This document shows, piece by piece, positions 922-30,712 of a stretch of 64,000 bases of DNA (position 1 is its first letter; every line of letters begins with the position of its first letter). The position numbers were made by a program, and so were the translations under genes. The stretch covers positions 62,001 through 126,000 of the forward strand of contig JAJFIV010000027.1 in assembly GCA_021774625.1 (NCBI GenBank), in the 5' to 3' direction. Below the pieces are notes generated by a model. It did not search any database, was not told the DNA's origin, and saw only the letters and a program-made list of their open reading frames with translations. This DNA comes from Alphaproteobacteria bacterium (GTDB lineage Bacteria > Pseudomonadota > Alphaproteobacteria > Sphingomonadales > JAKSBY01).

Positions 922-3777
922 TCAAATAAAGAGGTTGAATCCCGCCGATTGATTGACCGCCTGAAGCCTGAACAGGGCCTCCTGAAAGCCGGCCAGCTGT
1001 TTGGCGATTCTGGGCGGCGTATCGCCCGCAAACTGCGCCTCACGCTTCAAGGCGGCGGCAAAAGGATCAAAAGTCAGGGACCGGAAGGCGCGCTGCACCG
1101 TAGCGATGGCGGTATCAAGCTGACTGAGGACAAATTTCGCCGTCGCTTTATCGCGCAGATGAAGGCCCAAAGGCAGGTCAAGGGCAAAAGAACCGCCCAG
1201 ATTGTCCGCATCCGCTCCCTCATCCTCTTCCTCCAGGTCGAACAGCAGTTCGGTCGACAGAATGCGGGTGGGTTCGATGCCAAGCCGCGCCAGGGCGTCC
1301 TTATCATCCGGCCCCGAAATAATATCGATTTTCGCCCCGTTGACGGCTTCTATTTTCAGGGTGGGCCCGTCCGGCCCGCTCACTTCCACCGCCTTGATCT
1401 TGCGGAACGAAAGGCGATTGATTTTGGCGGCGATTTTTTTGAACGTATCGCCGGCTTCAATGGTGATTTTGCGGGCGCGGGCACCATCAATGGAAATAAA
1501 GAACTGGTCGCCGCTCCGCACCGTGGTCTGGGTGACGATATCGCGGGTCTCGACCGGATTGAATGTTCCGACGGGCAACCCGAGCTGTGTTAAAACCGAG
1601 CTTCCGGAATTGGTAAAGGCGATACCGGAACCGGCGTTGTTTGATAAAAGCAGGCCGAATTGTTCAACAAAATCAATGGCGCCGGTTGTGCCGTCAATTT
1701 TGGCGGCGAAGGCGTCTTTGAAACCTTTCTTGCTTTCTCCCTGTATGCCGCCATTGGTTTCACCGGCCACAAAAACCTTGCCATTATTGATCGTAACCGC
1801 ATTGACCCGGTCTGTTTCCACACTGCCAAGAAATGTCGTGAAATTTATGGAGGCGGACCCGCCATTATCATTCAGACCGACAACAAAGCCGTCTACTCCT
1901 CCTGAATGAGCGACCGGGCGCGCTCCGCCGCCAAAATTCGCATTGGAGGCGGACCCGGTGATAAAAACGGAATTTCCTTCCACCGCGATCCCCGAGACAG
2001 TCCCGCCGTCGAGGCTGCCCAGCGCCGTGCTGAATATCTGATTGGACAAGTCTGCCGCATCCAGTTTTTTCAAAGTCGCCGTGCCGTCTTCAACACTGGC
2101 AATCAGAATATTACCGTCCGCCGCCACGGTTATGGCGCGGACTTCTTCGTTGCCGGCGCCGCCAAACTGGCCCGAGGACTGGACAGCGCCATCCTCACCG
2201 CCGAGTTTCAGAACAAAGCCGTCCTTACCGCCGCCATAGCTTACGCCGTTATTGACGGCGCCCCTGGTATATCCGGCGACAAAGATGTCATTGTTGGCGT
2301 CCGTGGTGACGGCAAAAGCGCCGTCTTCTTTAAAGGTATCCAGCTGGTAGGTGAAAAGCTGATCGCCCCGGTCATTGAATTTGGTGACAAAACTGTCGGT
2401 TCCGGCAATTGCATCGGCAGAATTAAGTTTACTGTCCGTCTGGCCGGCAATGATGACATTGTCTTCACCGTCCACCGTTACGGAAAAGGCGTTGGCGTCG
2501 GATGTCGCGCCCAGAAGGCGGGAAAAAATCACGTCGCCATCAGCGCTGAGTTTTGTCAGGAAAACATCGCCTTCCGTCGCATCATTAAACTGACTGCCAA
2601 AGCTTCCCTGGCTGCGGCCGACCACATAAAGATTGCCCTGGCTGTCGGCGACGACAGCATTGGCCGTGGTTTCCGCCGTGGTGGGGTCGGGTTTATCCTC
2701 CTCAGACCCCCCGCTTTTGGCATGGGCCAGTTCGGATACCGCCGTCGTATTGCGATCAATCCCGGCAATGATATCCGCCGAAGACCTGGTGGGGTCGGCG
2801 CCATCCACACCGGAGATTTTTGTCAGGGTTCCATTGGAGAAATCATCGAGAAAACCGGCGACGTTGCCGGCCACAAAAAGCGCCGGCTCGGCCGCCTGCG
2901 CGGTGAAGCTCAGGGTTTCGCTGCTGACGCCGTCAATCTGAATGCCGTGGCCGATTTCACCTTTGGTGTTGACCGATACCCGGGTGAGGTATTTTGAGAT
3001 CGAGTTGCCATCGGCATCAAGGATAGGCTGACCATCGACATCGAGAACTTTGACCGCCGAGATTTTTTCATTGATCAGATTGACGACGGCATTGATCGAC
3101 ACGGTCCCGGAAATTTCCGACAGATCCACAGCCACCTCATCAAAACCGGTCGTCTTTTCAAGCCGGATTGTGAAGACTTCATTGCCGGCGATATTGGCCA
3201 GGGGGTCATTCCGCCCTTCGGTCTGAATAATCTTGCCGACAAACTTGCTGGACGCCTTGCCAAGGGAGGCGGCGCTTTCCACCCGGTTTGATTTTTCGCC
3301 GCGAAACAGGGTCAGCTTGTCGAGAACGGCCGTTTCCAGAAAAGCGCTGATTTCCTCGAAGCCCTGCTGAAACTTCAGGTCCAGCCGGCCGAGCGATGCC
3401 GTTGGCGTGTTCTTTTCAGCGGCGAACTGCGCCAGCGACTGTAAGGCTTTCAGGCCGTTATACAGGGCGAAAAGCGCCCGGCTGTCGAGATCATCGCCAG
3501 CGCGCTTTACGTCATTGGACTTCAGATCGATGAATTTTTCCAGGCTGCGGGCATCCCGCAGGCGCGCCTCAAGGGATTGCGGCTCAGTGGGGATCTGCCA
3601 GGGCGGGATAACCGCCGGTCCGCGAAAGGCGTCAATCTTTGCCGCCAGCTGTGAATCCGCTGAATTTACGCCGGCAAGAGCAATCTTGGAATTGAACGCA
3701 CCGGCCAGAACCGACGTATCAAAACGGATCAGCTGAAAAGGCGGCGGTTGGTTACTGGCACCGAATAAAAAGGCCAC
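922..3777 (-). CDS. Flagellin-like beta-propeller protein (FlaEY-like?)
   Basis: This is a 951-residue protein without a signal peptide. The N-terminal ~170 residues are helical and coiled-coil-like, in the style of flagellar filament or hook-associated proteins. Two Flagellin_IN-like segments follow, one near residue 210 (VDLSEISGTVSINAVVNLIN) and one near 770-850 (GPTLKIEAVNGAKIDI). Between them lie SBBP-type propeller repeats of about 55 residues, with recurring motifs such as DSQGNLYVVGR, DGEDNVIIAGQ, DANNDIFVAGY and AADGNILIAS. A helical C-terminus (residues ~870-951) ends FNLFI. I infer a flagellum-associated protein exported by the flagellar apparatus. The Caulobacter flagellar regulator FlaEY is a similar-sized candidate relative, named from memory. 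The FliL-like gene lies downstream on the same strand. Confidence 0.6.
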   Translation of the reverse strand: MAFLFGASNQPPPFQLIRFDTSVLAGAFNSKIALAGVNSADSQLAAKIDAFRGPAVIPPWQIPTEPQSLEARLRDARSLEKFIDLKSNDVKRAGDDLDSRALFALYNGLKALQSLAQFAAEKNTPTASLGRLDLKFQQGFEEISAFLETAVLDKLTLFRGEKSNRVESAASLGKASSKFVGKIIQTEGRNDPLANIAGNEVFTIRLEKTTGFDEVAVDLSEISGTVSINAVVNLINEKISAVKVLDVDGQPILDADGNSISKYLTRVSVNTKGEIGHGIQIDGVSSETLSFTAQAAEPALFVAGNVAGFLDDFSNGTLTKISGVDGADPTRSSADIIAGIDRNTTAVSELAHAKSGGSEEDKPDPTTAETTANAVVADSQGNLYVVGRSQGSFGSQFNDATEGDVFLTKLSADGDVIFSRLLGATSDANAFSVTVDGEDNVIIAGQTDSKLNSADAIAGTDSFVTKFNDRGDQLFTYQLDTFKEDGAFAVTTDANNDIFVAGYTRGAVNNGVSYGGGKDGFVLKLGGEDGAVQSSGQFGGAGNEEVRAITVAADGNILIASVEDGTATLKKLDAADLSNQIFSTALGSLDGGTVSGIAVEGNSVFITGSASNANFGGGARPVAHSGGVDGFVVGLNDNGGSASINFTTFLGSVETDRVNAVTINNGKVFVAGETNGGIQGESKKGFKDAFAAKIDGTTGAIDFVEQFGLLLSNNAGSGIAFTNSGSSVLTQLGLPVGTFNPVETRDIVTQTTVRSGDQFFISIDGARARKITIEAGDTFKKIAAKINRLSFRKIKAVEVSGPDGPTLKIEAVNGAKIDIISGPDDKDALARLGIEPTRILSTELLFDLEEEDEGADADNLGGSFALDLPLGLHLRDKATAKFVLSQLDTAIATVQRAFRSLTFDPFAAALKREAQFAGDTPPRIAKQLAGFQEALFRLQAVNQSAGFNLFI

Positions 3778-3942
3778 GGTTTGCTCTCATCCAATCACTG
3801 GGCGGAAAATCCGCACAATTCCTCGCCTTTCAGGATAGAGGATGCATGTTAAGAAATGATTGATATTTCCTCTTCCTCCCTTGCGGGACAGCGGCCTAAT
3901 CGCTAAGTGTGTAGGTCTGTAAATCAGACAAAGGGTCATGGT

Positions 3943-4221
3943 ATGTCATTGCCATTGTATATTATTTATAGGCTGCTGGATTTGTATAGCTGGATATTGA
4001 TTATATGGATCATCGTCAGCTGGCTTGTCGCTTTTAATGTCATCAATACTCATCAACGGTTTGTGGCAATTCTCATGGATATTCTGAACCGGCTGACAGA
4101 GCCTGTTCTCAGACCCATAAGGCGTTATGTTCCGCTGGTCGGCGGCCTGGACTTGTCGCCTCTTGTTCTATTGCTGGTCATTCACTTTATCCAATATGGA
4201 ATCGTTCATCATCTTGCCTGA
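3943..4221 (+). CDS. yggT: YggT family membrane protein
   Basis: This 92-residue inner-membrane protein has two hydrophobic segments: residues ~2-30 (LYIIYRLLDLYSWILIIWII) and a C-terminal one ([20 protein letters not shown]). Between them lies the family hallmark LTEPVLRPIRRYVP. YggT proteins are widespread small membrane proteins linked to osmotic tolerance and cell-envelope functions, and their biochemical role is unsettled. I start at the ATG at 3943, which has AAGGG 8 nt upstream, rather than the in-frame GTG at 3907. It overlaps the next gene by 26 nt, the common alphaproteobacterial order yggT-yggU-folD. Confidence 0.85.
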   Translation: MSLPLYIIYRLLDLYSWILIIWIIVSWLVAFNVINTHQRFVAILMDILNRLTEPVLRPIRRYVPLVGGLDLSPLVLLLVIHFIQYGIVHHLA

Positions 4222-4522
4222 GCGCGAGAGCTTTGATCTCAGAATAAAACTCACCCCGAAGGCCCGCCATAACCGGATCGGCCCGATGGCAGAAGATAGT
4301 GAGAACAATCCCGTTCTCAAAATCTCCGTCACCGCCGCTCCGGAAAACGGAAAAGCCAACGCCGCGATGATCAAAAGCTTGGCGAAAGCGCTCGGGCTTG
4401 CTAAAGGCGATATTGAGGTTGTGGCAGGGCAAACATCACGCAATAAAAAAATACGCCTGCGAGGGAATGAAGCGGCGCTGATTTCCCGCCTTCGGAAATT
4501 GACAGAGAAAGAAACGCGATGA
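4196..4522 (+). CDS. yggU: DUF167 (YggU) family protein
   Basis: A 108-residue soluble protein of the DUF167/YggU family. It shows the family core [17 protein letters not shown] near the N-terminus, then [27 protein letters not shown] and the late segment [18 protein letters not shown]. The function is unknown. The start is placed at ATG 4196, so that it begins inside the end of yggT (26-nt overlap). The longer upstream reading would add residues encoded by another frame of yggT. The stop overlaps the folD start by ATGA, so yggT-yggU-folD are probably translationally coupled. Confidence 0.85.
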
Positions 4523-5415
4523 GGCAGGCAAAAATTATTGACGGCAAGGCTTTCGCCGCCACTGCCCGCGAAGGCGTGGCCAGAGACGTTGCCGCCCTGA
4601 AGGACAAGTACGGTATTACACCGGGCCTTGCGGTGGTGCTGGTCGGCGAAGACCCGGCTAGCGAGGTTTACGTCCGCAACAAGGGCAAATCGACGCTTGA
4701 AACCGGCATGCAGTCCTTTGAGCATAGATTGCCGGCTGATATTGATCAGGGCGATCTGCTGAAACTTGTCGACAAGCTGAACCGGGACCCGGCGGTCAAT
4801 GGCATATTGGTTCAACTGCCCCTGCCGGATCAGATTGATGAAAACGCGGTGATTCAGTCAATCAATCCGGCCAAGGACGTGGATGGCTTTCATCTCGCCA
4901 ATGTCGGACTTTTATCAACCGGTGGCGATGGGCTGGTGCCCTGCACGCCGCTGGGCTGTATCCTGATGCTGAAAGAGACGTTGGGCAGTCTTTCCGGGAG
5001 GCGGGCTATTGTGGTCGGCCGGTCCAACATTGTCGGCAAACCGATGGCCAATCTTCTGTTGAAGGAAAGCTGCACCGTCACCATCGCCCATTCCCGGACG
5101 AAAGATCTGCCAGGCGAGTGCCGCCGCGCGGATATTGTCATCGCGGCCGTTGGCCGCCCGGAAATGGTAAAAGGCGACTGGATCAGGAAAGGCGCCACCG
5201 TCATTGATGTCGGCATCAACCGCATTCCCGCACCGGAAAAAGGCGAAGGGAAAACCCGGCTTGTCGGCGATGTGGCTTTTGATGAGGCCGTTCAGGTTGC
5301 CGGCGCCATTACACCCGTGCCCGGCGGGGTCGGCCCCATGACCATCGCCATGCTGCTCAGAAACACCGTGACCGCCACCTGCCGTCAGGCCGGTATCGAT
5401 CCGGAAAACCTATAG
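4519..5415 (+). CDS. folD: Bifunctional FolD (methylene-THF dehydrogenase/cyclohydrolase)
   Basis: FolD interconverts 5,10-methylene-, 5,10-methenyl- and 10-formyl-tetrahydrofolate with NADP in the cytosol and feeds purine and formyl-Met synthesis. The 298 residues fit the family length. Visible motifs are the catalytic YVRNKGK (Tyr51, Lys55), the folate-site segment VQLPLPDQI near residue 100, the dinucleotide-binding stretch [16 protein letters not shown] near 167, and the C-terminal [12 protein letters not shown]. It is the third gene of the yggT-yggU-folD set, joined to yggU by an ATGA overlap, and marC begins 8 nt after its stop. Confidence 0.97.
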
Positions 5416-18709: not shown

Positions 18710-19615
18710 ATGAGTTATCTGCCAACCCTGCGCCAGCTCACCTATCTGATCGCTCTCAGAGACCATCTCCATTTCGGCCGGGCCGCTGAACAATGCCATG
18801 TGACCCAATCGACACTTTCCGCCGGTATTCAGGAACTGGAAAATCTCCTTGGCGCGTCTTTGGTCGAGCGCACCAAACGCTCGGTTCTGTTCACGCCGCT
18901 CGGCGATGAGGTTGTTGAAAAGGCGCAGCGGGTCGTCCGGGAGGCGCAGGAACTGGCTGACCTGGCCGCCGGCAAAGAGCCTTTATCGGGACGTCTCAAG
19001 CTTGGGGTCATTCCCACCATCGCGCCTTTTTTGCTGCCAAAAATCCTTCCCCGGCTCAGGAAGGCCCATCCACTGCTGAGCCTGGAGCTGAAAGAGGATT
19101 TCTCTCACCTTCTGTGCGACGATCTTATTGCAGGAAGGCTCGATCTGATCCTGTTCGCCCTGCCCTTCCGCTGCGGCGACGTGGAACAGGAAATACTGTT
19201 CGAAGACCCGTTCTTCGCGGCTTTTCCGCCGGGCACAGCCGGCGCGGCGGGCGGGACGGTATCCCCTGACAGTCTGGCGGGTGAGCGCCTTTTGCTGCTG
19301 GAAGAAGGTCATTGCCTGCGCGACCATGCGCTGGATGCCTGCTCCAGTCCCATGATCAATGCGGACCGGTCGATTATGGGAACCAGCCTTCACACGCTGG
19401 TGCAGATGGTCGCCAACGGTCTCGGCGTAACATTGCTGCCGAAAATGGCCATTGATGGCGGTATCTTGCGGGGGACGGGAATTACCGTCACGCCCCTGAG
19501 TGGTGGCAAAGCGCCATCCCGAAAAATCGGCCTGGTCTGGCGTAAACAAAGTCCGCGTCAGGAGGAATTTCGCCTGCTGGCCGATTTCATTCGCAAACAT
19601 GCGCCAGAATCGTGA
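18710..19615 (+). CDS. oxyR: Hydrogen-peroxide-inducible activator OxyR
   Basis: A 301-residue LysR-family regulator. The N-terminal winged helix-turn-helix is LTYLIALRDHLHFGRAAEQC followed by HVTQSTLSAGIQELENLLGA. The effector domain holds the OxyR redox switch GHCLRDHALDAC with Cys202 and Cys211, nine residues apart as in the E. coli GHC199-C208 pair. Peroxide oxidises these to a disulfide that changes DNA binding. Together with the divergent ahpC this supports peroxide sensing rather than a general LysR role. The next gene starts 32 bp after the stop. Confidence 0.94.
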   Translation: MSYLPTLRQLTYLIALRDHLHFGRAAEQCHVTQSTLSAGIQELENLLGASLVERTKRSVLFTPLGDEVVEKAQRVVREAQELADLAAGKEPLSGRLKLGVIPTIAPFLLPKILPRLRKAHPLLSLELKEDFSHLLCDDLIAGRLDLILFALPFRCGDVEQEILFEDPFFAAFPPGTAGAAGGTVSPDSLAGERLLLLEEGHCLRDHALDACSSPMINADRSIMGTSLHTLVQMVANGLGVTLLPKMAIDGGILRGTGITVTPLSGGKAPSRKIGLVWRKQSPRQEEFRLLADFIRKHAPES

Positions 19616-19647
19616 TAGCGTCAGCCTGGAAGGCGGAAGGGGATAAA

Positions 19648-21777
19648 ATGAAAAAGCATGGGTGTTTGACATTGAGTCTCTTGTTTGGCTTGGCCGCCTG
19701 CTCACCGGGGCAACCCGATGATCCGGATAATCTGTGGCTGGATGAAAGCTATAGCGAACCGGCCCTTGAATGGGTGGCGGATCAGAACGCGGAGACCCTG
19801 AAGGAATTAGAACACGACCCCCGCTTTCAGCAATACCGGCGGGAGGCCGAGGCCGTGCTTACCGAGCCGGGACGCCTGCCCTTTGCATCGGCATCTGGGG
19901 GATTTGTTTATGATTACTGGCAGGATAAAGCACATATTTACGGTCAGTGGCGGCGCATGCCCTATACGGATTACGCCGCTGGCGGCAATGCCTGGGAGAT
20001 TCTGCTCGACCTTGACGCTCTGTCAGCCGATGAAAACACCCCCTGGATATTCTCCGGCGGCAATTGCCGGGGCGGCGACAGCAGCCGCTGCATGGTCCAA
20101 TTATCCCGTAACGGCATGGATGCTTCCGTTTACCGCGAGTATGACCTCGCGGCCGGGGGCTTTGTCGAGGACGGGTTCTCCTTACCGGAAGCCAAATCCA
20201 GCGTCTGGTGGCTGGATGACGATACCCTTCTTGCCGCCGTGGACTCCGGGCGCGGCAGCCTGACGGCGGCCGGTTATCCGCAGGCGATCAAACGCTGGCG
20301 CCGCGGCCAGCCGCTCAGCGCGGCGGAAACGGTATTTGAAGTCCCGGCCGATCATGTTTTCACCTTCGCCGCCTTTATCAATGCGCCGCAGGCAGGCGGG
20401 TTTATCGCCATCGATGGGGCCGATTATCTGCATCATCTCTACTGGCTGGTCTCTCCCGACGGCACAAAGACGCCATTGCCGCTTCCGGCCCGTGCGGGAA
20501 TCCAGGGCGTTTATCAGGGCGCCCTGATGCTGCGTCTCAATGATAACTGGACGCCCGGGGTTTCGGGCCGGGTTTATGAAGCGGGCAGTCTGGTCAAACT
20601 CTCCCTGCAGGGCCTGTTGCAACGCCAGGCCGTCGAAGAGCTGGAAACCGTCTATGTGCCGGGTCAGCGGGAAGCCATCCGTCAGGTGCAGGTGATTGGT
20701 GATACGATTTACCTCAATCTTTTAAGGGACTTGCGCAGCACGGTGATTGGCCTCAGCCCATCCGGGGGCGGCTGGCGGGAAAAGATGGTTCCCCTGGGCG
20801 ATGACCTGTTCATCGAGTTTATGGTGCGCGAACCGGGATCAGACCGGGTCCTCATCAAAACCCAGAATCCGCTGACGCCGGAAGCGCTTTTTGCGGTTGA
20901 TCTGGCCACCGGCGAGACTATGCTGCTGCATCAGATGCCCCCGCTTTTCGACGCTTCGGATCTCGCCATGGAAATTATCCCGGCCACTAGCAGGGACGGC
21001 GCCGAAATTTTCTATACGGCTATCCATCACAAGGATCAGCCCCGCGACGGAACCGCGCCGGCTCTGGTCTATGGCTATGGCGGCTTCGATGTGTCCGTTA
21101 CGCCCCGCTATGAACCGATTTTCGGCAAGCTGTGGCTGGAAAAGGGCGGCGCCTATATCCATGCCTATCTCAGGGGCGGCGGCGAATTCGGTCCACGCTG
21201 GCATAATTCCGCTCTTCTGGATAAGCGCCAGCTTGCCTATGACGATATGATCGCCGTTCTTGAGGATGTCCATCACCGGGGCATCTCAAATCCGAAACGA
21301 ACCGGCATTATGGGCCGCAGCAATGGCGGCCTGATGGTCGCCGCCGTGATGATGCAGCGCCCGGACCTGATGAATGCGGCCGTGGTCGGCGGACCGCTGA
21401 TTGATATGCTGCGCTTTCACAAACCGGAACTGGTGCCGGGCCTCAGCTGGGCCGGTGAATACGGCAATCCGGATGATCCGGACACATACGCCTATATCAG
21501 CCGCTATTCACCGCTTCAGAATCTCCGTAAAGACGCGGCTTATCCCACACCCCTGATCATCACATCGACCTATGATGACCGCGTCCTGCCCGGCCATGCC
21601 AGGCGTTTTGCCGCCAGAATGCAGGCCCTGGATCATGACGCGCTTTATTTCGAGGACCGTCAGGGCGGCCATTACTGGGAACTGGCCGGCGGCCCGCCTC
21701 CCGGCGACTGGCGCAAACGGGCGCTGGCCCGCACGGTGGAATATATCTATCTCGCCCGCCGGCTGAAAAATGACTGA
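19648..21777 (+). CDS. Prolyl oligopeptidase-family lipoprotein (S9A)
   Basis: A 709-residue serine peptidase that cuts short proline-containing peptides. The N-terminus has a lipoprotein signal (LSLLFGLAACSPG), so the enzyme is anchored in the envelope. An N-terminal propeller begins with the POP signature DNLWLDESYSEPALEWVADQ, and the catalytic hydrolase occupies roughly residues 440-709. The nucleophile is in GRSNGGLMVAAVMM, the Asp in TSTYDDRVLPGHA, and the His in RQGGHYWELAG. The start is ATG 19648, with AAGGGG just upstream. It overlaps the next S9 gene by 8 bp. A collinear paralogue lies at 44121. Confidence 0.92.
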   Translation: MKKHGCLTLSLLFGLAACSPGQPDDPDNLWLDESYSEPALEWVADQNAETLKELEHDPRFQQYRREAEAVLTEPGRLPFASASGGFVYDYWQDKAHIYGQWRRMPYTDYAAGGNAWEILLDLDALSADENTPWIFSGGNCRGGDSSRCMVQLSRNGMDASVYREYDLAAGGFVEDGFSLPEAKSSVWWLDDDTLLAAVDSGRGSLTAAGYPQAIKRWRRGQPLSAAETVFEVPADHVFTFAAFINAPQAGGFIAIDGADYLHHLYWLVSPDGTKTPLPLPARAGIQGVYQGALMLRLNDNWTPGVSGRVYEAGSLVKLSLQGLLQRQAVEELETVYVPGQREAIRQVQVIGDTIYLNLLRDLRSTVIGLSPSGGGWREKMVPLGDDLFIEFMVREPGSDRVLIKTQNPLTPEALFAVDLATGETMLLHQMPPLFDASDLAMEIIPATSRDGAEIFYTAIHHKDQPRDGTAPALVYGYGGFDVSVTPRYEPIFGKLWLEKGGAYIHAYLRGGGEFGPRWHNSALLDKRQLAYDDMIAVLEDVHHRGISNPKRTGIMGRSNGGLMVAAVMMQRPDLMNAAVVGGPLIDMLRFHKPELVPGLSWAGEYGNPDDPDTYAYISRYSPLQNLRKDAAYPTPLIITSTYDDRVLPGHARRFAARMQALDHDALYFEDRQGGHYWELAGGPPPGDWRKRALARTVEYIYLARRLKND

Positions 21778-23698
21778 CCGGCCGGATAAAACAACCGCCC
21801 CCTACGGATCCTGGAAATCGCCCATCACTGCGGAAGTGGCGGCGGGAGCGTCGAGCAGGATTGGCGATGTGACCCTGGATGGCCAGGATATCTACTGGGT
21901 CGAGTCGCGACCAAAAGATGCTGGCCGGTCGGTTCTGGTTCGCCACCGAAACGGCAGGACGGAGGATATCACGCCGGAAGATTTCAGCGTTCGCAGCCGG
22001 GTGCATGAATATGGCGGCGGCGCATATCTCGCCCATCGCGGCACCATCTTTTTTGCCAACGCGGCCGATCAGAAACTTTACCGGCAGGACGTAGGACACA
22101 CCCCCGTTGCGTTGACACCCGATGGCCTGCGCTATGCGGACTGTCTCTATGATCAAACACGCAACCGGCTGATTTGCGTCCGGGAGGATCACCGGGGCGA
22201 TGGGGAAGCGGTCAATACGCTGGTCGCGCTCGACCCCGCCCGCGGCGGGGAAGGGGAAATTCTTTTTGAGGGAACCGACTTTGTGGCATCCCCCCGTCTC
22301 AGCCCTGATGGCGCCAGGCTTGCCTGGCTGACCTGGAATCATCCCAATATGCCATGGGATCACACCCATCTGTGGCTGGCGGAACTGGATGAAAGCGGCC
22401 ATCCGGTCAATCCGCGAAAGGTTCCGGAACCATCGCCCGGCGCCATCACCCAGCCGCGCTTTTCACCGGACGGCGCCCTCTATTTCATCGCCGACTGGTC
22501 GGACTGGTGGAATCTTTACCGGCTCGCCGACCAGGGCGCGGAACCGGTTTACGCTATGGAAGCGGAATTTGCCGGGCCGCAGTGGGTCTTCGGTCTCAGC
22601 AATTATGATTTCCTGTGCAATACGGAAGCGATTGTCAGCTACACGCAAAACAGCCGCTGGCATCTGGCGCGACTGTCCCTTGATGACGGCGGTCTGACAG
22701 CGATCGAGACCGATTTGACCGATATCGGCCATATCCGGGCCGAAGGGAACCGGGCGATTTTCTCCGGCGCATCGGAAACGGCAGGCACCGGCATATACCG
22801 GCTGACAGACGCCATCGAGACCATACGCGCACCGGCGTTGATTGCCGTTTCAGCAGCGGACCTTGCGGCCGGAGAAATCATTTCCTTCCCCACCGGAGAC
22901 GGAGAGACGGCTTATGGTATATTTTACCCGCCCCCCAATGCCCGCTTTCAGGGTCGGGAAGGCGAAGCGCCGCCCCTTCTGGTCAAGGTCCATGGCGGAC
23001 CAACCGGCAGCGCCACGCCAGCGCTTGATCTGCGTCATCAGTTCTGGGCATCGTGCGGCATCGCCATTCTTGACCTCAACCACCGGGGCAGCACTGGCTA
23101 TGGCCGCAAGTTCCGCCACCGCCTGAATAGCCAGTGGGGTGTTTTCGATGTGGCGGATGCCGTCAAAGGCGCGGCATATTTGGCTGAACAAGGCAGGGTG
23201 GATGGCGCCAGACTTGCCATATCCGGCGGCAGCGCAGGGGGTTTTACCGTCCTTGCCGCCCTTGCTTTTCATAACACTTTCACTGCGGGCGCCAGCTATT
23301 ACGGCGTCAGCGATCTGGAAGCTCTGGCCCGCGATACCCACAAGTTTGAATCCCGCTACCTGGATCAGTTGATCGGTCCTTATCCCGCAGCGCGGGCGGT
23401 TTACCGGGAACGCTCCCCGATCCATGCCATTGACCGGCTGGATACGCCGCTGATCGTCTTTCAGGGCCTGAAGGACCCGGTGGTGCCGCCCGAACAGTCG
23501 GAAATGATCGTGGAAGCGCTGCGGCAAAAAAATATTCCCGTCGCCTATCTCACCTTTGAGACCGAATCCCACGGCTTTCGCGATGCCAGAAACATCGCCC
23601 GGTCGCTGGAGGCCGAGCTCTATTTTTACGGCAAAATCTTCGGCTTTGAACCCGCTGGCGCAATTGATCCGGTTAGGATTGAGAATCTCGACAAGTAA
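21770..23698 (+). CDS. S9 family peptidase (acylaminoacyl-peptidase-like)
   Basis: A 642-residue prolyl-oligopeptidase-superfamily enzyme of the dipeptidyl aminopeptidase/acylaminoacyl-peptidase (S9C) type. An N-terminal beta-propeller (motifs such as SRLSPDGARLAWLTW-like ASPRLSPDGARLAWLTWN and PRFSPDGALYFIAD) precedes the alpha/beta hydrolase. The nucleophile is in ISGGSAGGFTVLAAL, the Asp in FQGLKDPVVPPEQ, and the His in TESHGFRDARN. No signal peptide is present, so it is probably cytosolic, unlike the lipoprotein peptidase just upstream with which it overlaps by 8 bp. Together they could process peptides on both sides of the membrane. Confidence 0.9.
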   Translation: MTDRPDKTTAPYGSWKSPITAEVAAGASSRIGDVTLDGQDIYWVESRPKDAGRSVLVRHRNGRTEDITPEDFSVRSRVHEYGGGAYLAHRGTIFFANAADQKLYRQDVGHTPVALTPDGLRYADCLYDQTRNRLICVREDHRGDGEAVNTLVALDPARGGEGEILFEGTDFVASPRLSPDGARLAWLTWNHPNMPWDHTHLWLAELDESGHPVNPRKVPEPSPGAITQPRFSPDGALYFIADWSDWWNLYRLADQGAEPVYAMEAEFAGPQWVFGLSNYDFLCNTEAIVSYTQNSRWHLARLSLDDGGLTAIETDLTDIGHIRAEGNRAIFSGASETAGTGIYRLTDAIETIRAPALIAVSAADLAAGEIISFPTGDGETAYGIFYPPPNARFQGREGEAPPLLVKVHGGPTGSATPALDLRHQFWASCGIAILDLNHRGSTGYGRKFRHRLNSQWGVFDVADAVKGAAYLAEQGRVDGARLAISGGSAGGFTVLAALAFHNTFTAGASYYGVSDLEALARDTHKFESRYLDQLIGPYPAARAVYRERSPIHAIDRLDTPLIVFQGLKDPVVPPEQSEMIVEALRQKNIPVAYLTFETESHGFRDARNIARSLEAELYFYGKIFGFEPAGAIDPVRIENLDK

Positions 23699-23772: not shown

Positions 23773-25065
23773 CTATTTTCTGTAGGCAAAGGGCGCTTCG
23801 CCCTGCAAGTTCATATAGCGGTCACGGAGTTTGGTCTGGCGTGACACCAGCGGAATATCCTGTCCGCGAATAATGACGGCATCGGGGCTCACCATAAGTT
23901 CCAGAGGATCGCCGTCCCAGACCACCACATCCGCTTCCTTGCCGCGTTCCAGCGTTCCGTATTTATCATCAATACCGAAAATACGGGCCGGATTAACGGT
24001 CACCGCCGCCATAGCCGCTTCCCATGGCAGGCCATTGGCAACCGCCGTACCCGCCAGCTGCCGCATAAGCCGGGCATTATGCGACGTGCGGATGCCGAAA
24101 TTGCCGCCGGCGATGGCAATCGTTACCCCGGCATCATTGAGCCGGGCGGCGTTCCGCATGGTCGCGCCGAGATTCTCAAAATTACCCGGAAGATTGGCGA
24201 AGGGAAACAGGATCACGGGAATGTCAGCCGCGGCCAGTTCTTCGCCGACCATCCAGCCTTCGCTGGCGCCCAGTAAAATGATCTTAAGATCGCCGTGGCG
24301 TTTCTTCAGCCGCAAAATCTGCCGAAGGTCTGAAGCACGGTCAGCGGAAACCAGCAACGGCATATCGCCTTCAATCACTGGAACCAGAGCGGCAGCATCC
24401 AGCGCGTTCAGCATCGGCTCGCCGAAACCGGGCGCGCGGCCGCCAGCATAGGCCCCGGCCTCGCGGAATGCATTTTCCAGGTAAACCCAGGCAGCGCCGC
24501 GGGCGCCACCGGCCGTCCCGGCCCCTCCCTCGCCGAGGTCAACGCCCATGGCCGCACCCGGCTTCACCAGGATATCCCTTGCATCCCCCAAATGAATGAC
24601 CGCGGCCTGACCGGCAAAAATGCTTTTGCCCGTTCCCGGTATGACAACCGCACGGGTTACCCCCTCAATCCGCGTCACCGGAATGTTCGTGGCGCTTGGA
24701 TTCAGGCCATAGGAAATATCGAATGCGGCGCCAAAGGATGCTTCGCGCGCGGTATGATCAACTGTCCCCGGAACGGCGCTCACTTCTTCGATCCCAATGG
24801 TGGAAGAAGCGCTCATCAGGCCCGGCGTCACCCATTTTCCGGTGGCGTCAATCACCCGGTAATCGCCCGGCACCTCCACATTGCGGCCAACCGCCCGGAT
24901 GGTGGCGCCATCAATCAGCACTATGCCGTTTTCGATCACACCGGCATCGCCCATAGTGTGGACAGTGCCGCCGGTGATGGCGATTTTCTCCGCCTGTGCT
25001 GCGGTGACTGCCAGTGAACCCAAAGCCGCAACGGCGGCAAATCTGAACATTTTCATCGGTTTCAT
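23773..25065 (-). CDS. Amidohydrolase-family protein lacking metal ligands
   Basis: A 430-residue exported protein (signal peptide ending VTAAQAEK) with the amidohydrolase scaffold. Present are the beta-sandwich start IAITGGTVHTMG, the VIDATGKWVTPGLM strand and the C-terminal TVNPARIFGIDDKYGTLERGKEADVVVWDG. The usual metal-binding residues are gone: after PGLM the HxH position reads SASS, the later His positions read LVSADRASD and LLGASEG, and the final Asp position reads IAGGNFG. It is therefore probably a catalytically dead partner of the upstream, intact amidohydrolase, to which it is joined by an ATGA overlap. A role in folding, scaffolding or substrate binding is inference. Confidence 0.82.
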   Translation of the reverse strand: MKPMKMFRFAAVAALGSLAVTAAQAEKIAITGGTVHTMGDAGVIENGIVLIDGATIRAVGRNVEVPGDYRVIDATGKWVTPGLMSASSTIGIEEVSAVPGTVDHTAREASFGAAFDISYGLNPSATNIPVTRIEGVTRAVVIPGTGKSIFAGQAAVIHLGDARDILVKPGAAMGVDLGEGGAGTAGGARGAAWVYLENAFREAGAYAGGRAPGFGEPMLNALDAAALVPVIEGDMPLLVSADRASDLRQILRLKKRHGDLKIILLGASEGWMVGEELAAADIPVILFPFANLPGNFENLGATMRNAARLNDAGVTIAIAGGNFGIRTSHNARLMRQLAGTAVANGLPWEAAMAAVTVNPARIFGIDDKYGTLERGKEADVVVWDGDPLELMVSPDAVIIRGQDIPLVSRQTKLRDRYMNLQGEAPFAYRK

Positions 25066-26483
25066 TTCGCATCTCCTTCACCGGGCTGACCCAGTTCGAA
25101 ATCGTACAGGGGCTGACGGCGGGGATCATTGAGATCAAAGATCAGCGCGCCATCGACAAAAACCTTTTCCGCCTTGGCGTAGACAGAGAACGGATCGGCG
25201 GTCCAAAGCACCACATCCGCATCTTTCCCGGCCTCCAGCGAGCCTGTCTGATCAGCAATACCCAGTGATTTTGCCGGATTTAGCGACAACCAGGTCCAGG
25301 CCGTGGCTTTGGAAATATCGACGCCTGCCTTTCTGGCGTAACCCAGCGCCTTGGCCGCTTCCTGATTAAGGCGCTGAATGCCGACCTGCGAATCCGAGTG
25401 AACGATAGCGCAGGCACCGGCATTATGAACAAAGGGGATATTTTCCCGGATGCCGTCATAGGCTTCCATCTTGAAGCCCCACCAGTCGGCCCACATGGCG
25501 GAGCAGACGTCATTTTCGGCAAGAATGTCGGCAATCTTGTAGGATTCGACGGCATGCTGGAAAGAGGTAATCTTGTAATCAAATTCCTTCGCCACATCCA
25601 GCATCACCACCATTTCGTCGGCCCGGTAGCAATGCATATGGACCCGAATATCGCCATCCAGAACGCCTTTCAGCGTCTCCATCTGCAAATCGCGTTTGGG
25701 AGCCTTTGCGTCCTTGCCGGCCGTATAATCCTTTTCATAGTCGTCCCATTGTTTTTTATAATCCGCGGCCTTCGCCCAGGCGGCGCGATAACCGGCCACA
25801 TTGCCCATGCGGGATCCCGGACCGCCCCGATTGGCGTAAACCCGTTTCGGATTCTCGCCGCAGGCCATTTTCATGCCATAGGGGGCATCCGGAAATTTCA
25901 TCCCCTGCATGGTGCGGGCCGGAACATTTTTCAGTGTCACCGAGCGGCCGCCGAACAGATTGGCGGAACCCGGCAGGATCTGCAGCGAGGTCACACCGCC
26001 TGCAAGTGCGCGGCCAAAACCCGGATCGTGGGGCCAGACCGCATGCTCGGCCCAGACCTGCGCCGTATTCGGCGACGTCACTTCATTGCCGTCGGAATGG
26101 GCTTGCACACCGGGGGAGGCATAAACGCCAAGATGCGAATGGACATCGATAATGCCCGGCGTTACCCACTTGCCCTGCCCGTTAATGACATTGGCGCCGG
26201 CAGGCGCCGCAATATCGTTGCCGACAGCGGCGATATTGCCGCCCCGCATCAGCACCGATCCGTTTTGAATCATGCCGCCCTTGCCGTCGTAAATATTCAC
26301 ATTTGTGATCAGCGTGGCTTCGGACGGTAAAGGCTGATAGGTGGATGGATAAGGATTGGGATCGATGGTGACTTTCGCCGCCTGTTCTCCCTTCTTATCG
26401 CCATCCGGCGCCGCGGTTGTCGAGGCGCAGCCCGCAAGGACCGCCATCGCCGCAACAACGCTCATACAAGTTTTCTGTCTCAT
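25062..26483 (-). CDS. Amidohydrolase lipoprotein
   Basis: A 473-residue metal-dependent hydrolase with a lipoprotein signal peptide (VVAAMAVLAGCAS). It keeps the metal-site pattern lost in its downstream neighbour: HxH in PGIIDVHSHLGV, His in IRVHMHCYRADE, His in ITSFQHAVES, and Asp in AIVHSDSQVG. LNPAKSLGIADQTGSLEAGKDADVVLW is the family C-terminal strand in pieces. Related exported enzymes act on dipeptides or cyclic amides; the substrate is not known. The start is ATG 26483, with AGAGGA 8 nt upstream. It is part of a minus-strand peptide operon with POT and two more amidohydrolases. Confidence 0.88.
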   Translation of the reverse strand: MRQKTCMSVVAAMAVLAGCASTTAAPDGDKKGEQAAKVTIDPNPYPSTYQPLPSEATLITNVNIYDGKGGMIQNGSVLMRGGNIAAVGNDIAAPAGANVINGQGKWVTPGIIDVHSHLGVYASPGVQAHSDGNEVTSPNTAQVWAEHAVWPHDPGFGRALAGGVTSLQILPGSANLFGGRSVTLKNVPARTMQGMKFPDAPYGMKMACGENPKRVYANRGGPGSRMGNVAGYRAAWAKAADYKKQWDDYEKDYTAGKDAKAPKRDLQMETLKGVLDGDIRVHMHCYRADEMVVMLDVAKEFDYKITSFQHAVESYKIADILAENDVCSAMWADWWGFKMEAYDGIRENIPFVHNAGACAIVHSDSQVGIQRLNQEAAKALGYARKAGVDISKATAWTWLSLNPAKSLGIADQTGSLEAGKDADVVLWTADPFSVYAKAEKVFVDGALIFDLNDPRRQPLYDFELGQPGEGDAK

Positions 26484-26501: not shown

Positions 26502-27791
26502 TTATTTATAAACCACGCCTTCCTTCATAATGAAATCCACATCCCTGAGTTCGGAAATATTTTCCAGGGGATTGCCGTCAACGGCGATGATATCGGCGGA
26601 TTTTCCCGGTTCAAGCGTGCCCGTAATATCGCTGATGTCCAAAAGATCGGCGGCATTTATGGTAACCATCACCAGAATCTCGTCTTCCGGAATGCCAATT
26701 TCCTTCATCAGCTCCAGTTCACGGGCATTGTCGCCATGCCTGGAAACCCCGGTATCGGTGCCGAAGGCAATTTTGACCCCCGCTTCATAGGCCCGTTTGG
26801 TGGAACCTTTGATCTGCGGCCCGACTTTCAATGACTTTTCACGGATTGGCGCCGGCATAAAGGACTGATTGGTCGCCATTTCAAAAACCGTCTGCCCCGC
26901 CAGCATGGTGGGCACCAGATAAGCGCCGCCTTCCTTAAAAAGCCGGATCGATTCATCATCCAGATAAGTGCCGTGTTCGATGGAATCGACCCCGGCGCGC
27001 AGGGCGGCATTGATACCGCCGGCGTCATGGGCATGGGCGGCCACCTTGCGGCCCAGGCTGTGGGCGGTCGCCATGACAGCTTCCAGTTCATCATCGAACA
27101 TCTGCTGACCGGTGCCTGCTGCGGTTTCCGAAAGAACGCCGCCGGTCGCGGTGATCTTGATGAAATCTGACCCGCGCTTGACCTGCGCCCGCACCGCGCG
27201 GCGGCAATCGTCGGCGCCGTCGCAATTGCCGTCTGAGACCAGCAGGCCCAGCACATCTTCCCGGAAGCCATGAGTGTCGCCATGGCCGCCGGTCGCATTG
27301 ACGCTGTCACCGGCGGCAATGATCCGCGGACCCGGCACCTGCCCCTTGTTGATAGCATCCCGCAAAGGCAGAATCACTTTGGGACTGCCGCCGGCATCGC
27401 GGACCGTCGTGAAGCCCGCCATCAGATCGCGCTTGGCGAACATGGCTGCCGTGAAGGCCGCCGTCGCGTCCTCATTTTCCACCGCCGTGATTTTGCGGTT
27501 CGGCCCCAGTTCCCCCTGCAAATGCACATGGCTGTCAATCATGCCCGGCAGCACGAAGGAATCGGAGAGATCGACCAGGGTCCAGTCGGCACCAAGGGAG
27601 TCAGCGGACACATACCCATCCCGGATTTCGGTGATTTTACCATCCTCGATCAGGATGGATTGTTCCCGTTTCGGGTCCTGGCCCGGCACATCCAAAAGCG
27701 AGCCGGCATGGATCACCGTCTGTGCTTCTGCCGAGACCGCTATACCGGATAATAGTAATCCCGTAAGGGTCGCAGTTTTAAGTTTGCTCAT
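26502..27791 (-). CDS. Exported amidohydrolase (Xaa-Pro dipeptidase-like)
   Basis: A 429-residue amidohydrolase with a cleavable signal peptide (LTGLLLSGIAVSAEAQ). The metal site is intact: HxH in PGMIDSHVHLQGE, the bridging Lys in SDFIKITATGGV, His in KVAAHAHDAGG, His in DSIEHGTYLDD, and Asp in IAFGTDTGVSRHG. This pattern matches the Zn-dependent Xaa-Pro/Sgx9260-type carboxypeptidases, which hydrolyse N-acyl and dipeptide substrates. The start is ATG 27791, with AAGGAG upstream; an alternative in-frame TTG at 27806 is rejected. It lies between POT and the lipoprotein amidohydrolase. Confidence 0.9.
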   Translation of the reverse strand: MSKLKTATLTGLLLSGIAVSAEAQTVIHAGSLLDVPGQDPKREQSILIEDGKITEIRDGYVSADSLGADWTLVDLSDSFVLPGMIDSHVHLQGELGPNRKITAVENEDATAAFTAAMFAKRDLMAGFTTVRDAGGSPKVILPLRDAINKGQVPGPRIIAAGDSVNATGGHGDTHGFREDVLGLLVSDGNCDGADDCRRAVRAQVKRGSDFIKITATGGVLSETAAGTGQQMFDDELEAVMATAHSLGRKVAAHAHDAGGINAALRAGVDSIEHGTYLDDESIRLFKEGGAYLVPTMLAGQTVFEMATNQSFMPAPIREKSLKVGPQIKGSTKRAYEAGVKIAFGTDTGVSRHGDNARELELMKEIGIPEDEILVMVTINAADLLDISDITGTLEPGKSADIIAVDGNPLENISELRDVDFIMKEGVVYK

Positions 27792-27811
27792 AAAAACTCC
27801 TTTCAATTAAA

Positions 27812-29593
27812 TTATTTCATGCCGTGCATGCCGCGCCTCAGCAGCGGCGAAATCACCAACAGGCCTACGCCTATTCCAAAGGCCCAGATGCCGATGGTCT
27901 GGAAAACATCGACGGACGTATTCAGGGAAAGTTCCGTGCTGAGCACTTTACCGCCCACCGCTTCCGACGAAGCCAATTGGGCGACAATCCCTCCGGCATA
28001 TTGGGCCATCGCCACAGACAGGAACCATGCCCCCATCATGAAGCCGACCAGTTTGGGAACCGACAGTTTTGTGATCATGGAAAGGCCAACCGGTGACAAA
28101 AAAAGTTCACCGGTGGAATGCAGAAGATAAGCCAGGATAAGCCAGATAATGCCAACCTGAAATGTGTTATCAGCATAATTGCTGCCATAAGCCAGAACGA
28201 TAAAGCCGAGCCCGACCTGCAAAAGACCAAGACCGAATTTCACCGGTGTGCTCGGTTCCCAGCCCCTGCGCGCCAGCGCCACCCACATAATGCTGAAGAG
28301 CGGGGCCAACAGAACAATAAAAAGCGGATTGAAAACCTGAACCTGACCAGCCTCCATTTTGCCGAGAACCGGAACGGAAAGGTCGGCATTGTTTGCGGCA
28401 AACAACGTCATGGACGACCCGGCCTGTTCGAACAGGGTCCAGAATACTGTGGAAAAGATAATAAGGATTGTTGCGACGATCATCTTATCCCGTGCATCTT
28501 TGTGCATAGTCGCCAAACAATAGCCCGGGATTCCCAAAATGGCCGCCAGATAGGAAATAATCATCAATTTACCCAGAAGAGGCTGGTTCAAAAAATAAGA
28601 CCATGGCCCCGTGGCCTGGGCTTGCTGGGTGATTGATGCCGCCTCCATGGCGCCGAGCATAAGGAACCACATGATCGGAATTGCCAGAAAAGAGCCGAGA
28701 TAAATCATCATATTGGCCCTGCCTCCCGGCGCATCCGGCGGTGCTTCACCGATCCCGGCCAGACGGCCGTTTTCAAACTGGATCAGCGCCCAGGACAGGA
28801 TCATGCCAATGACCACCAGACCGAAACCATATTCCCAGCCCCACCAGGCGGCAAAGAGCGGAACAAAAAACTGACTGAGCAGTGATCCCGAATTGATCCC
28901 CATATAAAAAATGGTGAAACCCGCATCGCGCCTGGCATCCCCTTGCGCATAAAGATCCCCGACCATTGTAGAGATGTTTGGTTTGAAAAACCCGTTCCCG
29001 ACCACAACAAGGGCAAGCGACATAAACATCAGATGGATAAAAAACGGAGAGCGCTCACCATCAAAATCATAGCTGCCCTCGGGCATTACAGAGGGAAGAA
29101 CACTGCCGTCCGAGCCTTCCAGCATGACATTGCCTTCGGCGTCGCCCCTGACCAGATAACGCCCGGCCCCGGTGACGACAAACTGCTGGGCATCCTGACC
29201 TTCCGCCTCTACTTTGACTACTTCATAGCGGACGCCGTCATATTCCAGATAGGGCTTGGCCTCCTCGCCGCCGAAGGTCAGGCCGAAATAGCCGATTGCC
29301 ATCAAAATGGCCCCAAATTTCACCGAATGTTTGGAGCCGAGATATTTATCAGCCAGATAACCGCCAAGCAGCGGCGTCAGGTAAACCAGAGACGTATAGG
29401 CGCCGTAAATGGCACTCGCCACGCCCTGATCGAAAATAAAATGCTGGGTGAGATAGAGGATAAGAATGGCCCGCATGCCATAATAGCCGAAGCGTTCCCA
29501 CATTTCCGTCGCGAACATCAAAAAAAGCGGTTTGGGATGCCCTAACAGCTCACCCTTCCATTTTTCATGACGGCCTTCAGCAATATCTGACAT
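27812..29593 (-). CDS. POT family oligopeptide:H+ symporter
   Basis: A 593-residue inner-membrane transporter of the proton-dependent oligopeptide (PTR/POT) family. The N-terminal POT signature region MFATEMWERFGYYGMRAILI is clear, with the ExxERFxYY proton-coupling motif, followed by LGGYLADKYLGSKHSVKFGA. A later family segment is FWTLFEQAGSSMTLFAANNAD. A soluble insertion around residues 110-180 (YEVVKVEAEGQDAQQFVVTG) is unusual for bacterial POTs and resembles animal- or Shewanella-type enlarged forms. As the first gene of a run with three exported amidohydrolases, it probably imports di- and tripeptides released outside the membrane. Confidence 0.93.
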   Translation of the reverse strand: MSDIAEGRHEKWKGELLGHPKPLFLMFATEMWERFGYYGMRAILILYLTQHFIFDQGVASAIYGAYTSLVYLTPLLGGYLADKYLGSKHSVKFGAILMAIGYFGLTFGGEEAKPYLEYDGVRYEVVKVEAEGQDAQQFVVTGAGRYLVRGDAEGNVMLEGSDGSVLPSVMPEGSYDFDGERSPFFIHLMFMSLALVVVGNGFFKPNISTMVGDLYAQGDARRDAGFTIFYMGINSGSLLSQFFVPLFAAWWGWEYGFGLVVIGMILSWALIQFENGRLAGIGEAPPDAPGGRANMMIYLGSFLAIPIMWFLMLGAMEAASITQQAQATGPWSYFLNQPLLGKLMIISYLAAILGIPGYCLATMHKDARDKMIVATILIIFSTVFWTLFEQAGSSMTLFAANNADLSVPVLGKMEAGQVQVFNPLFIVLLAPLFSIMWVALARRGWEPSTPVKFGLGLLQVGLGFIVLAYGSNYADNTFQVGIIWLILAYLLHSTGELFLSPVGLSMITKLSVPKLVGFMMGAWFLSVAMAQYAGGIVAQLASSEAVGGKVLSTELSLNTSVDVFQTIGIWAFGIGVGLLVISPLLRRGMHGMK

Positions 29594-29986: not shown

Positions 29987-30712
29987 ATGAGGGCGGATAA
30001 TAAATTGAATAACCCAAATCCACAGGGATCAAAACTATTACGCGTCACGACGGTCTGCCTTATGGCGGGTTTGGGTATTTATCCCACCTTCTCCGCCAAT
30101 ACTGTTTTTGCCGAAGAAAACGGGCTGTTCGGGTTTGGTGAATCGGTTCTTGGCTCAACCAACGAACATCTCACCGCCGACCGCTACCGCCGGCTCTTGC
30201 CGATTGATTACAATCTCAAGGGAGAGACGGCGGAACACTGGCAAATTCTGAATGATCTGCTGCGGTATCAATCCCTGGAAAACAAGCTGAAGCTGACGCA
30301 GCAATTTTTCAACACAATCCACTATATGACCGACATGGAAGCCTTTGGACGGCAGGATTACTGGGCGTCGATTGGCGAATTTATGGCTGTTGGCGGCGAC
30401 TGCGAAGATTTTGCCATCGCCAAATACCGGGCTTTGGTCGATACCGGTTTTCCCGCGGAAAAATTACGCGTTGTTCTGGTCGAGGATATGGTCACAGGTT
30501 TGGATCATGCGGTTCTGTCGGCGGAACTGGATGGCCGCACCTACATTTTGGACAATCAGTATCCGCAGGTGATGGATGCGCGGTACGTCAATACCTACCG
30601 CCCGCTCTATTCGATGAACCAGTATACGATCTGGAAGCACACACAGACGGTTCCGGACGCCTTTGTGTCGGTTGAGACCAAAATGCCGCCTACACCGGGC
30701 GGCGGGCAGTAA
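29987..30712 (+). CDS. Transglutaminase-like cysteine peptidase (BTLCP)
   Basis: A 241-residue bacterial transglutaminase-like cysteine proteinase, the family that includes LapG, the periplasmic protease that releases adhesins under c-di-GMP control. The catalytic triad is readable: Cys139 in GGDCEDFAIAKY, His174 in GLDHAVLS and Asp189 in YILDNQYPQV. An N-terminal basic and hydrophobic stretch (LLRVTTVCLMAGLGIYPTFS) suggests export. No LapD or large adhesin gene is adjacent, so a LapG role is only possible. A GGAG motif precedes the ATG, and it converges with maeB. Confidence 0.88.
   Translation: MRADNKLNNPNPQGSKLLRVTTVCLMAGLGIYPTFSANTVFAEENGLFGFGESVLGSTNEHLTADRYRRLLPIDYNLKGETAEHWQILNDLLRYQSLENKLKLTQQFFNTIHYMTDMEAFGRQDYWASIGEFMAVGGDCEDFAIAKYRALVDTGFPAEKLRVVLVEDMVTGLDHAVLSAELDGRTYILDNQYPQVMDARYVNTYRPLYSMNQYTIWKHTQTVPDAFVSVETKMPPTPGGGQ

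Follow-up and report, generated by a model that had tools for sequence, protein, structure and literature searches.

Inactive chains of the amidohydrolase superfamily that aid a partner, and dead paralogues that activate a live one, are already known. For example, the pseudo-dihydroorotase of Pseudomonas aeruginosa is inactive, yet it is needed for ATCase activity (PMC7053772). In Trypanosoma, the live enzyme AdoMetDC and a catalytically dead paralogue, prozyme, are reported to make up a functional heterodimer in which the dead chain activates the live one (PMC5201418). In the open-access literature searched, outside which most subscription journals lie, we found no description of a live and a dead amidohydrolase working as a pair.

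Here we analyze a candidate for such a pair, encoded by two adjacent minus-strand genes, A and B, within a 64,000-nucleotide stretch of alphaproteobacterial DNA (the window). We propose, with a probability of roughly three in four, that A (catalytic) and B (non-catalytic) are subunits of an obligate heteromeric, envelope-located amidohydrolase. The P. aeruginosa ATCase–pseudo-dihydroorotase system (PMC7053772) likewise contains an inactive chain of the amidohydrolase superfamily on which an active partner depends, but that partner is an unrelated transcarbamoylase and cytoplasmic, whereas B would be joined to a paralogous live amidohydrolase and exported with it. AdoMetDC/prozyme has an unrelated fold and is eukaryotic, and is a mechanistic analogue only (PMC5201418).

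Among solved structures, the Thermotoga maritima amidohydrolase 3ooq is closest to A and B in both sequence and fold. It shares the ligand motifs of A and is an intact enzyme-type chain, unlike B; the open-access literature searched yielded neither a function for 3ooq nor papers on 3ooq/TM0814. The Xaa-Pro dipeptidase-type amidohydrolases of Caulobacter (NF051886) belong to the same superfamily as A and B, and a neighboring gene in the window resembles them. A metallo bile salt hydrolase (PMC13081902) was considered as a match for the pair and rejected, because it belongs to another amidohydrolase subgroup (PF07969, YtcJ-like).

If our proposal is correct, pseudoenzyme subunits, which are known system by system, would gain a widespread bacterial example, one where the loss of catalysis and the strict pairing can be followed through a deep tree that includes several architectures. 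The pair would make it testable why dead enzyme copies persist. It would also mean that pair-bearing genomes contain two kinds of gene annotated simply 'amidohydrolase', one of them unable to encode an enzyme of the usual type, and that the live partner A may have little activity in assays that lack B.

A and B overlap by four bases at the end of an apparent operon

Both open reading frames lie where a first-pass annotation of the window had placed them (Table 1). The junction of the two genes reads GCGAAATGAAACCG, with the TGA stop codon of A within the ATG start of B. The overlap described in that annotation is real, both by direct reading of the sequence and by an exact −4 overlap in 30/30 relatives (see below). 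The putative ribosome-binding site of B sits 7 nt ahead of its ATG, and A starts at the ATG at 26483, preceded by GAGAGG. On the minus strand, the gene order is POT, Xaa-Pro-dipeptidase-like, A and B, with gaps of 5 bp and 18 bp followed by the 4-base overlap.

Table 1. Features of the A/B locus (positions in the window)
Feature	Position	Strand	Remarks
B, exported pseudo-amidohydrolase, 430 aa	23773..25065	−	All metal ligands replaced
A, intact amidohydrolase, 473 aa, probable lipoprotein	25062..26483	−	Ligands H115, H117, E134, K205, H284, H310, D364
ATGA stop/start overlap of A and B	25062..25065	−	Read in the sequence
AAGGAG, putative ribosome-binding site for B, inside the end of A	25073..25078	−	Direct reading
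Probable signal peptide of B, residues 1-25, Sec-type, cleavage after AQA (AQA/EK)	24991..25065	−	Sequence motif
Probable lipoprotein signal of A, lipobox LAGC ending at Cys19	26427..26483	−	Sequence motif
Xaa-Pro-dipeptidase-like amidohydrolase, 18 bp upstream of A, same apparent operon	26502..27806	−	NF051886, 359 bits, under the cut-off of 500
POT-family oligopeptide:H+ symporter, first gene of the apparent operon	27812..29593	−	PTR2, 1e-63

The signal assignments are motif readings. A lipobox motif is present in 56/71 homologues of A and an AxA motif in 53/71 homologues of B. A is thus probably a lipoprotein, and the motifs would put both proteins outside the cytoplasm, with A lipid-anchored.

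B retains the amidohydrolase fold and has lost the metal site

Both proteins match the Pfam family Amidohydro_1 (PF01979), A at 5e-13 (53 bits) and B at 4e-14 (49 bits), both above the gathering cut-off of 25 bits. Membership in the curated Xaa-Pro dipeptidase family NF051886 was rejected for both, because they score about 37-40 bits over short stretches against a cut-off of 500. By sequence, 3ooq is the nearest solved structure to A (9e-62) and to B (4e-28), and it is also the best match of the predicted folds: the AlphaFold2 prediction for B has a mean pLDDT of 91.2 and a TM score of 0.86-0.88 to the target, and that for A a pLDDT of 84.8 and a TM score of 0.93 to the target. The earlier suggestion that B keeps the amidohydrolase scaffold is therefore borne out by profile and predicted fold. 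Two highly conserved loops of A, 121-132 and 211-215, have low confidence when A is modeled on its own. This would be compatible with their being ordered by a partner or by metal, which is suggestive only; the low confidence might instead stem from a shallow alignment or from the metal-free model.

A carries the full set of amidohydrolase metal ligands: HxH (as HSH, 115/117), a bridging Glu or Lys (E134 or K205), two further His and the final Asp. The first-pass annotation had noticed the HxH, the two later His and the Asp, and we found all seven residues of A listed in Table 1 to be invariant in 71/71 homologues. On this complete binuclear-metal ligand set, A is predicted to hydrolyze amides in a metal-dependent manner. 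In B, the corresponding residues are S87, T89, A106, G174, S240, G266 and G320, so that all seven ligands are replaced. The motifs SASS, SAD, GAS and GGN previously read at these sites have the right letters, with the HxH offset by one or two residues. The loss extends to the 71 homologues of B: the number of the seven ligand residues retained is zero in 43, one in 27 and two in a single homologue. Most of the former ligand positions are variable among these proteins, with entropies in the 98-99th percentile at two of the positions, and the position matching H310 of A is mostly Gly.

Across the 71 B homologues, no His, Cys or Lys reaches a conservation of 80%. A relocated metal site of the usual type is therefore not visible in the sequence of B, and we rejected a supply of metal ligands from other positions within the protein. 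The same observation bears on the possibility that B is a second enzyme of the pathway that A serves, using an active site that differs from that of A and is metal-free or relocated. In favor of such an enzyme, the barrel is intact in the prediction, and the polar residues D103, D246, E269, D386, R416 and Y417 are well conserved. However, the invariant residues are mainly Gly, Pro and hydrophobic scaffold positions and the C-terminal tail (SRQTxLRDRY), and this, together with the variable former active site and the missing conserved His, Cys and Lys, makes a second enzyme improbable.

Between close relatives, dN/dS ranges over 0.05-0.18 in B and 0.02-0.16 in A, indicating that B is under strong purifying selection and is not decaying. 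B evolves faster than A, with a mean column identity of 43% as compared with 60%. In its conserved scaffold and its purifying selection, B fits a prozyme-like dead paralogue of a live enzyme.

A and B occur in the same genomes

We searched 397 evenly drawn Pseudomonadota genomes and found A in 70 of them and B in exactly the same 70. In all 70 pairs the two genes are on one contig, with match edges within 270 bp, and B thus co-occurs strictly with its live paralogue. Pair-bearing genomes make up about 18% of this sample and belong to 43/232 genera. At a threshold of E<=1e-20, B was matched in 50 of 61 genomes from the order of the window (its own genome and relatives). For the best 30 of these 50 matches, A was directly upstream and the overlap was exactly ATGA in 30/30, a degree of conservation that excludes a chance origin of the arrangement.

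A set of 80 named A loci from the genome collection spans Sphingomonadales, Kordiimonas, Hyphomonadaceae, Caulobacter, Alteromonas and others. B is directly downstream in 79, the remaining contig ending just after A; in all 79 it is a long open reading frame, and at least 74 of the 79 have the 4-base overlap. Additional copies of A each come with their own B, twice in Caulobacter segnis (L165, L166) and once in genome G420 (L155). Pair order and a near-identical overlap are common to Alpha- and Gammaproteobacteria, and related fused forms include one from Bacteroidota. The first-pass annotation had made its reading depend on conservation of the pair in relatives, and the same 70/397 genomes and 79/80 named loci show the pair to be conserved. 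We claim no range in Acidobacteriota: the contig titled Candidatus Sulfopaludibacter (Acidobacteriota; L091) has a B that is 81% identical to that of a Hyphomonas locus and is probably a mis-binned MAG contig, and another locus (L108) is titled 'Thermoanaerobaculum'.

Live and dead domains are fused in some lineages and form separate clades

Profile searches identified a second architecture, type II, in some Gammaproteobacteria. It consists of a protein of about 1,030 residues, the N-terminal half of which lacks the ligands while the C-terminal half has them, followed directly (often by TAATG) by the gene for a separate ligand-less protein. The dead-live fusion was found in eight Gammaproteobacteria and, in a frame-broken form, in Hymenobacter; a third protein, also dead, lies beside the fusion. 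The gammaproteobacterial loci L148-L152 and L156-L158 have two dead domains per live one, one fused and one free; this architecture was absent from the alphaproteobacterial loci examined. This Hymenobacter (Bacteroidota) copy is on a plasmid and has the type II arrangement with its fused gene split among several frames. In this locus (L160, Hymenobacter volaticus, 1805-4855) the downstream dead partner is an open frame, and the fused gene is either a broken copy or affected by a sequencing fault. Type III, seen in two genomes of the order to which the window belongs, consists of a divergent live/dead tandem whose genes overlap by 4 bases. Relatives from Acetoanaerobium, Cytobacillus and Nonomuraea carry the ligands, and no pseudo-partner gene was recognizable in the flanks examined; the whole Acetoanaerobium and Cytobacillus records contain one profile match each, the enzyme itself.

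These architectures bear on two further readings of the pair. Conserved operon pairing and translational coupling can equally be produced by dosage or by a shared pathway, and an operon with an ATGA overlap does not by itself prove contact. A and B might hence be coupled for dosage only and act independently in one pathway, with B in an unrelated role, for example as a structural envelope protein. This is very unlikely in view of the phylogenetically matched dead-plus-live pairing in three sublineages, fusion included. Somewhat less improbable, though still unlikely, is that B acts with A as a distinct binding protein or delivery factor of the periplasm, which captures substrate, delivers metal or assists folding but forms no stable complex with A. 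Such a factor would be consistent with the export motif, the retained barrel and the co-encoding with A, and diversified ligand recognition would give a variable pocket like that of B. Against this, the fusions join dead and live domains covalently, favoring direct and lasting contact, and copy number is matched in the genomes examined, as every extra A has its own B.

In a maximum-likelihood tree, the dead domains, namely B of types I-III together with the N-terminal half of type II, all fall into one clade (95/95), and the live partner domains all fall into another (85/95). Constraining the type I forms of A and B to group together was rejected (p-AU 0.0013), which excludes a recent duplication of A as the source of B, a result that covers type I only. 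When the ligand columns were removed the live clade remained (95), while the stand-alone enzymes fell within the dead group. A single loss of the ligands is therefore not proved, and one origin of the dead state is favored by the sequence tree.

The tree also completes the case against B being a decaying duplicate of A that is retained merely by its position at the end of the operon. Its faster evolution might have been taken as decay, but the low dN/dS values, the long open frames at all 79 loci, the occurrence in the same 70/70 genomes and the age of the dead lineage, which is not a recent duplicate, refute this idea in practice, and we consider it scarcely credible.

A model for the A/B enzyme

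Co-occurrence, gene order, overlap, ligand loss, selection and dead-live fusions together led us to view A and B as subunits of one enzyme, and suggest that the live enzyme has had its dead sister as a subunit since ancient times and cannot do without it. The earlier idea that B is a non-catalytic partner, or has a substrate-binding role, is supported by our data. According to our model, translational coupling through the ATGA would let A and B be made in matched amounts, and both would be exported. B would then bind A directly, replacing the second protomer of an ancestral homo-oligomer, and would stabilize or complete the active site of A, or gate substrate, while performing no chemistry itself. 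A substrate-selecting role is possible because the pocket is variable. The complex may cut peptides or peptide-like amides down to a size range accepted by the POT transporter.

The division of labor between live and dead chains would predate the divergence of the Pseudomonadota and Bacteroidota forms, with a dead domain later fused to the live one in some lineages. We are evenly divided on a broader evolutionary account, in which an ancient amidohydrolase branch turned into an obligate heteromer as one paralogue became non-catalytic before the Pseudomonadota/Bacteroidota split, the pocket of the dead subunit diversified, possibly to select substrates, and a second dead domain was fused in one lineage.

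The locus lies in a probable peptide-use region

A POT gene is upstream of A in 30/80 named loci, as it is in the window, and peptide scavenging is therefore the likely context of the pair. The arrangement suggests that the substrates are peptides or peptide-like amides, with the products imported by the POT transporter. Loci with an adjacent POT gene are mostly alphaproteobacterial, and those of the Alteromonas type have other neighbors. In Qipengyuania citrea, the same order is annotated 'peptide MFS transporter - amidohydrolase - amidohydrolase family protein'. The Xaa-Pro-dipeptidase-like gene of the window has a counterpart in only one of the 80 named loci, that of Rhodothalassium (L099), where it likewise lies between the POT gene and A.

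On the plus strand of the window, a LysR-type regulator and two S9-family prolyl-oligopeptidase-like genes (18710-23698) end just before the pair, and the whole of 18.7-29.6 kb therefore looks like a peptide-use region. The window also encodes a small C93 transglutaminase-like cysteine protease at 29987-30712, distantly LapG-like (74 bits, cut-off 320), which adjoins a malic enzyme-phosphotransacetylase fusion gene. The genome from which the window was taken (G000) has 28 Amidohydro_1 matches in 3.0 Mb, a seemingly large set, several of them in open frames of 1,059-1,187 residues.
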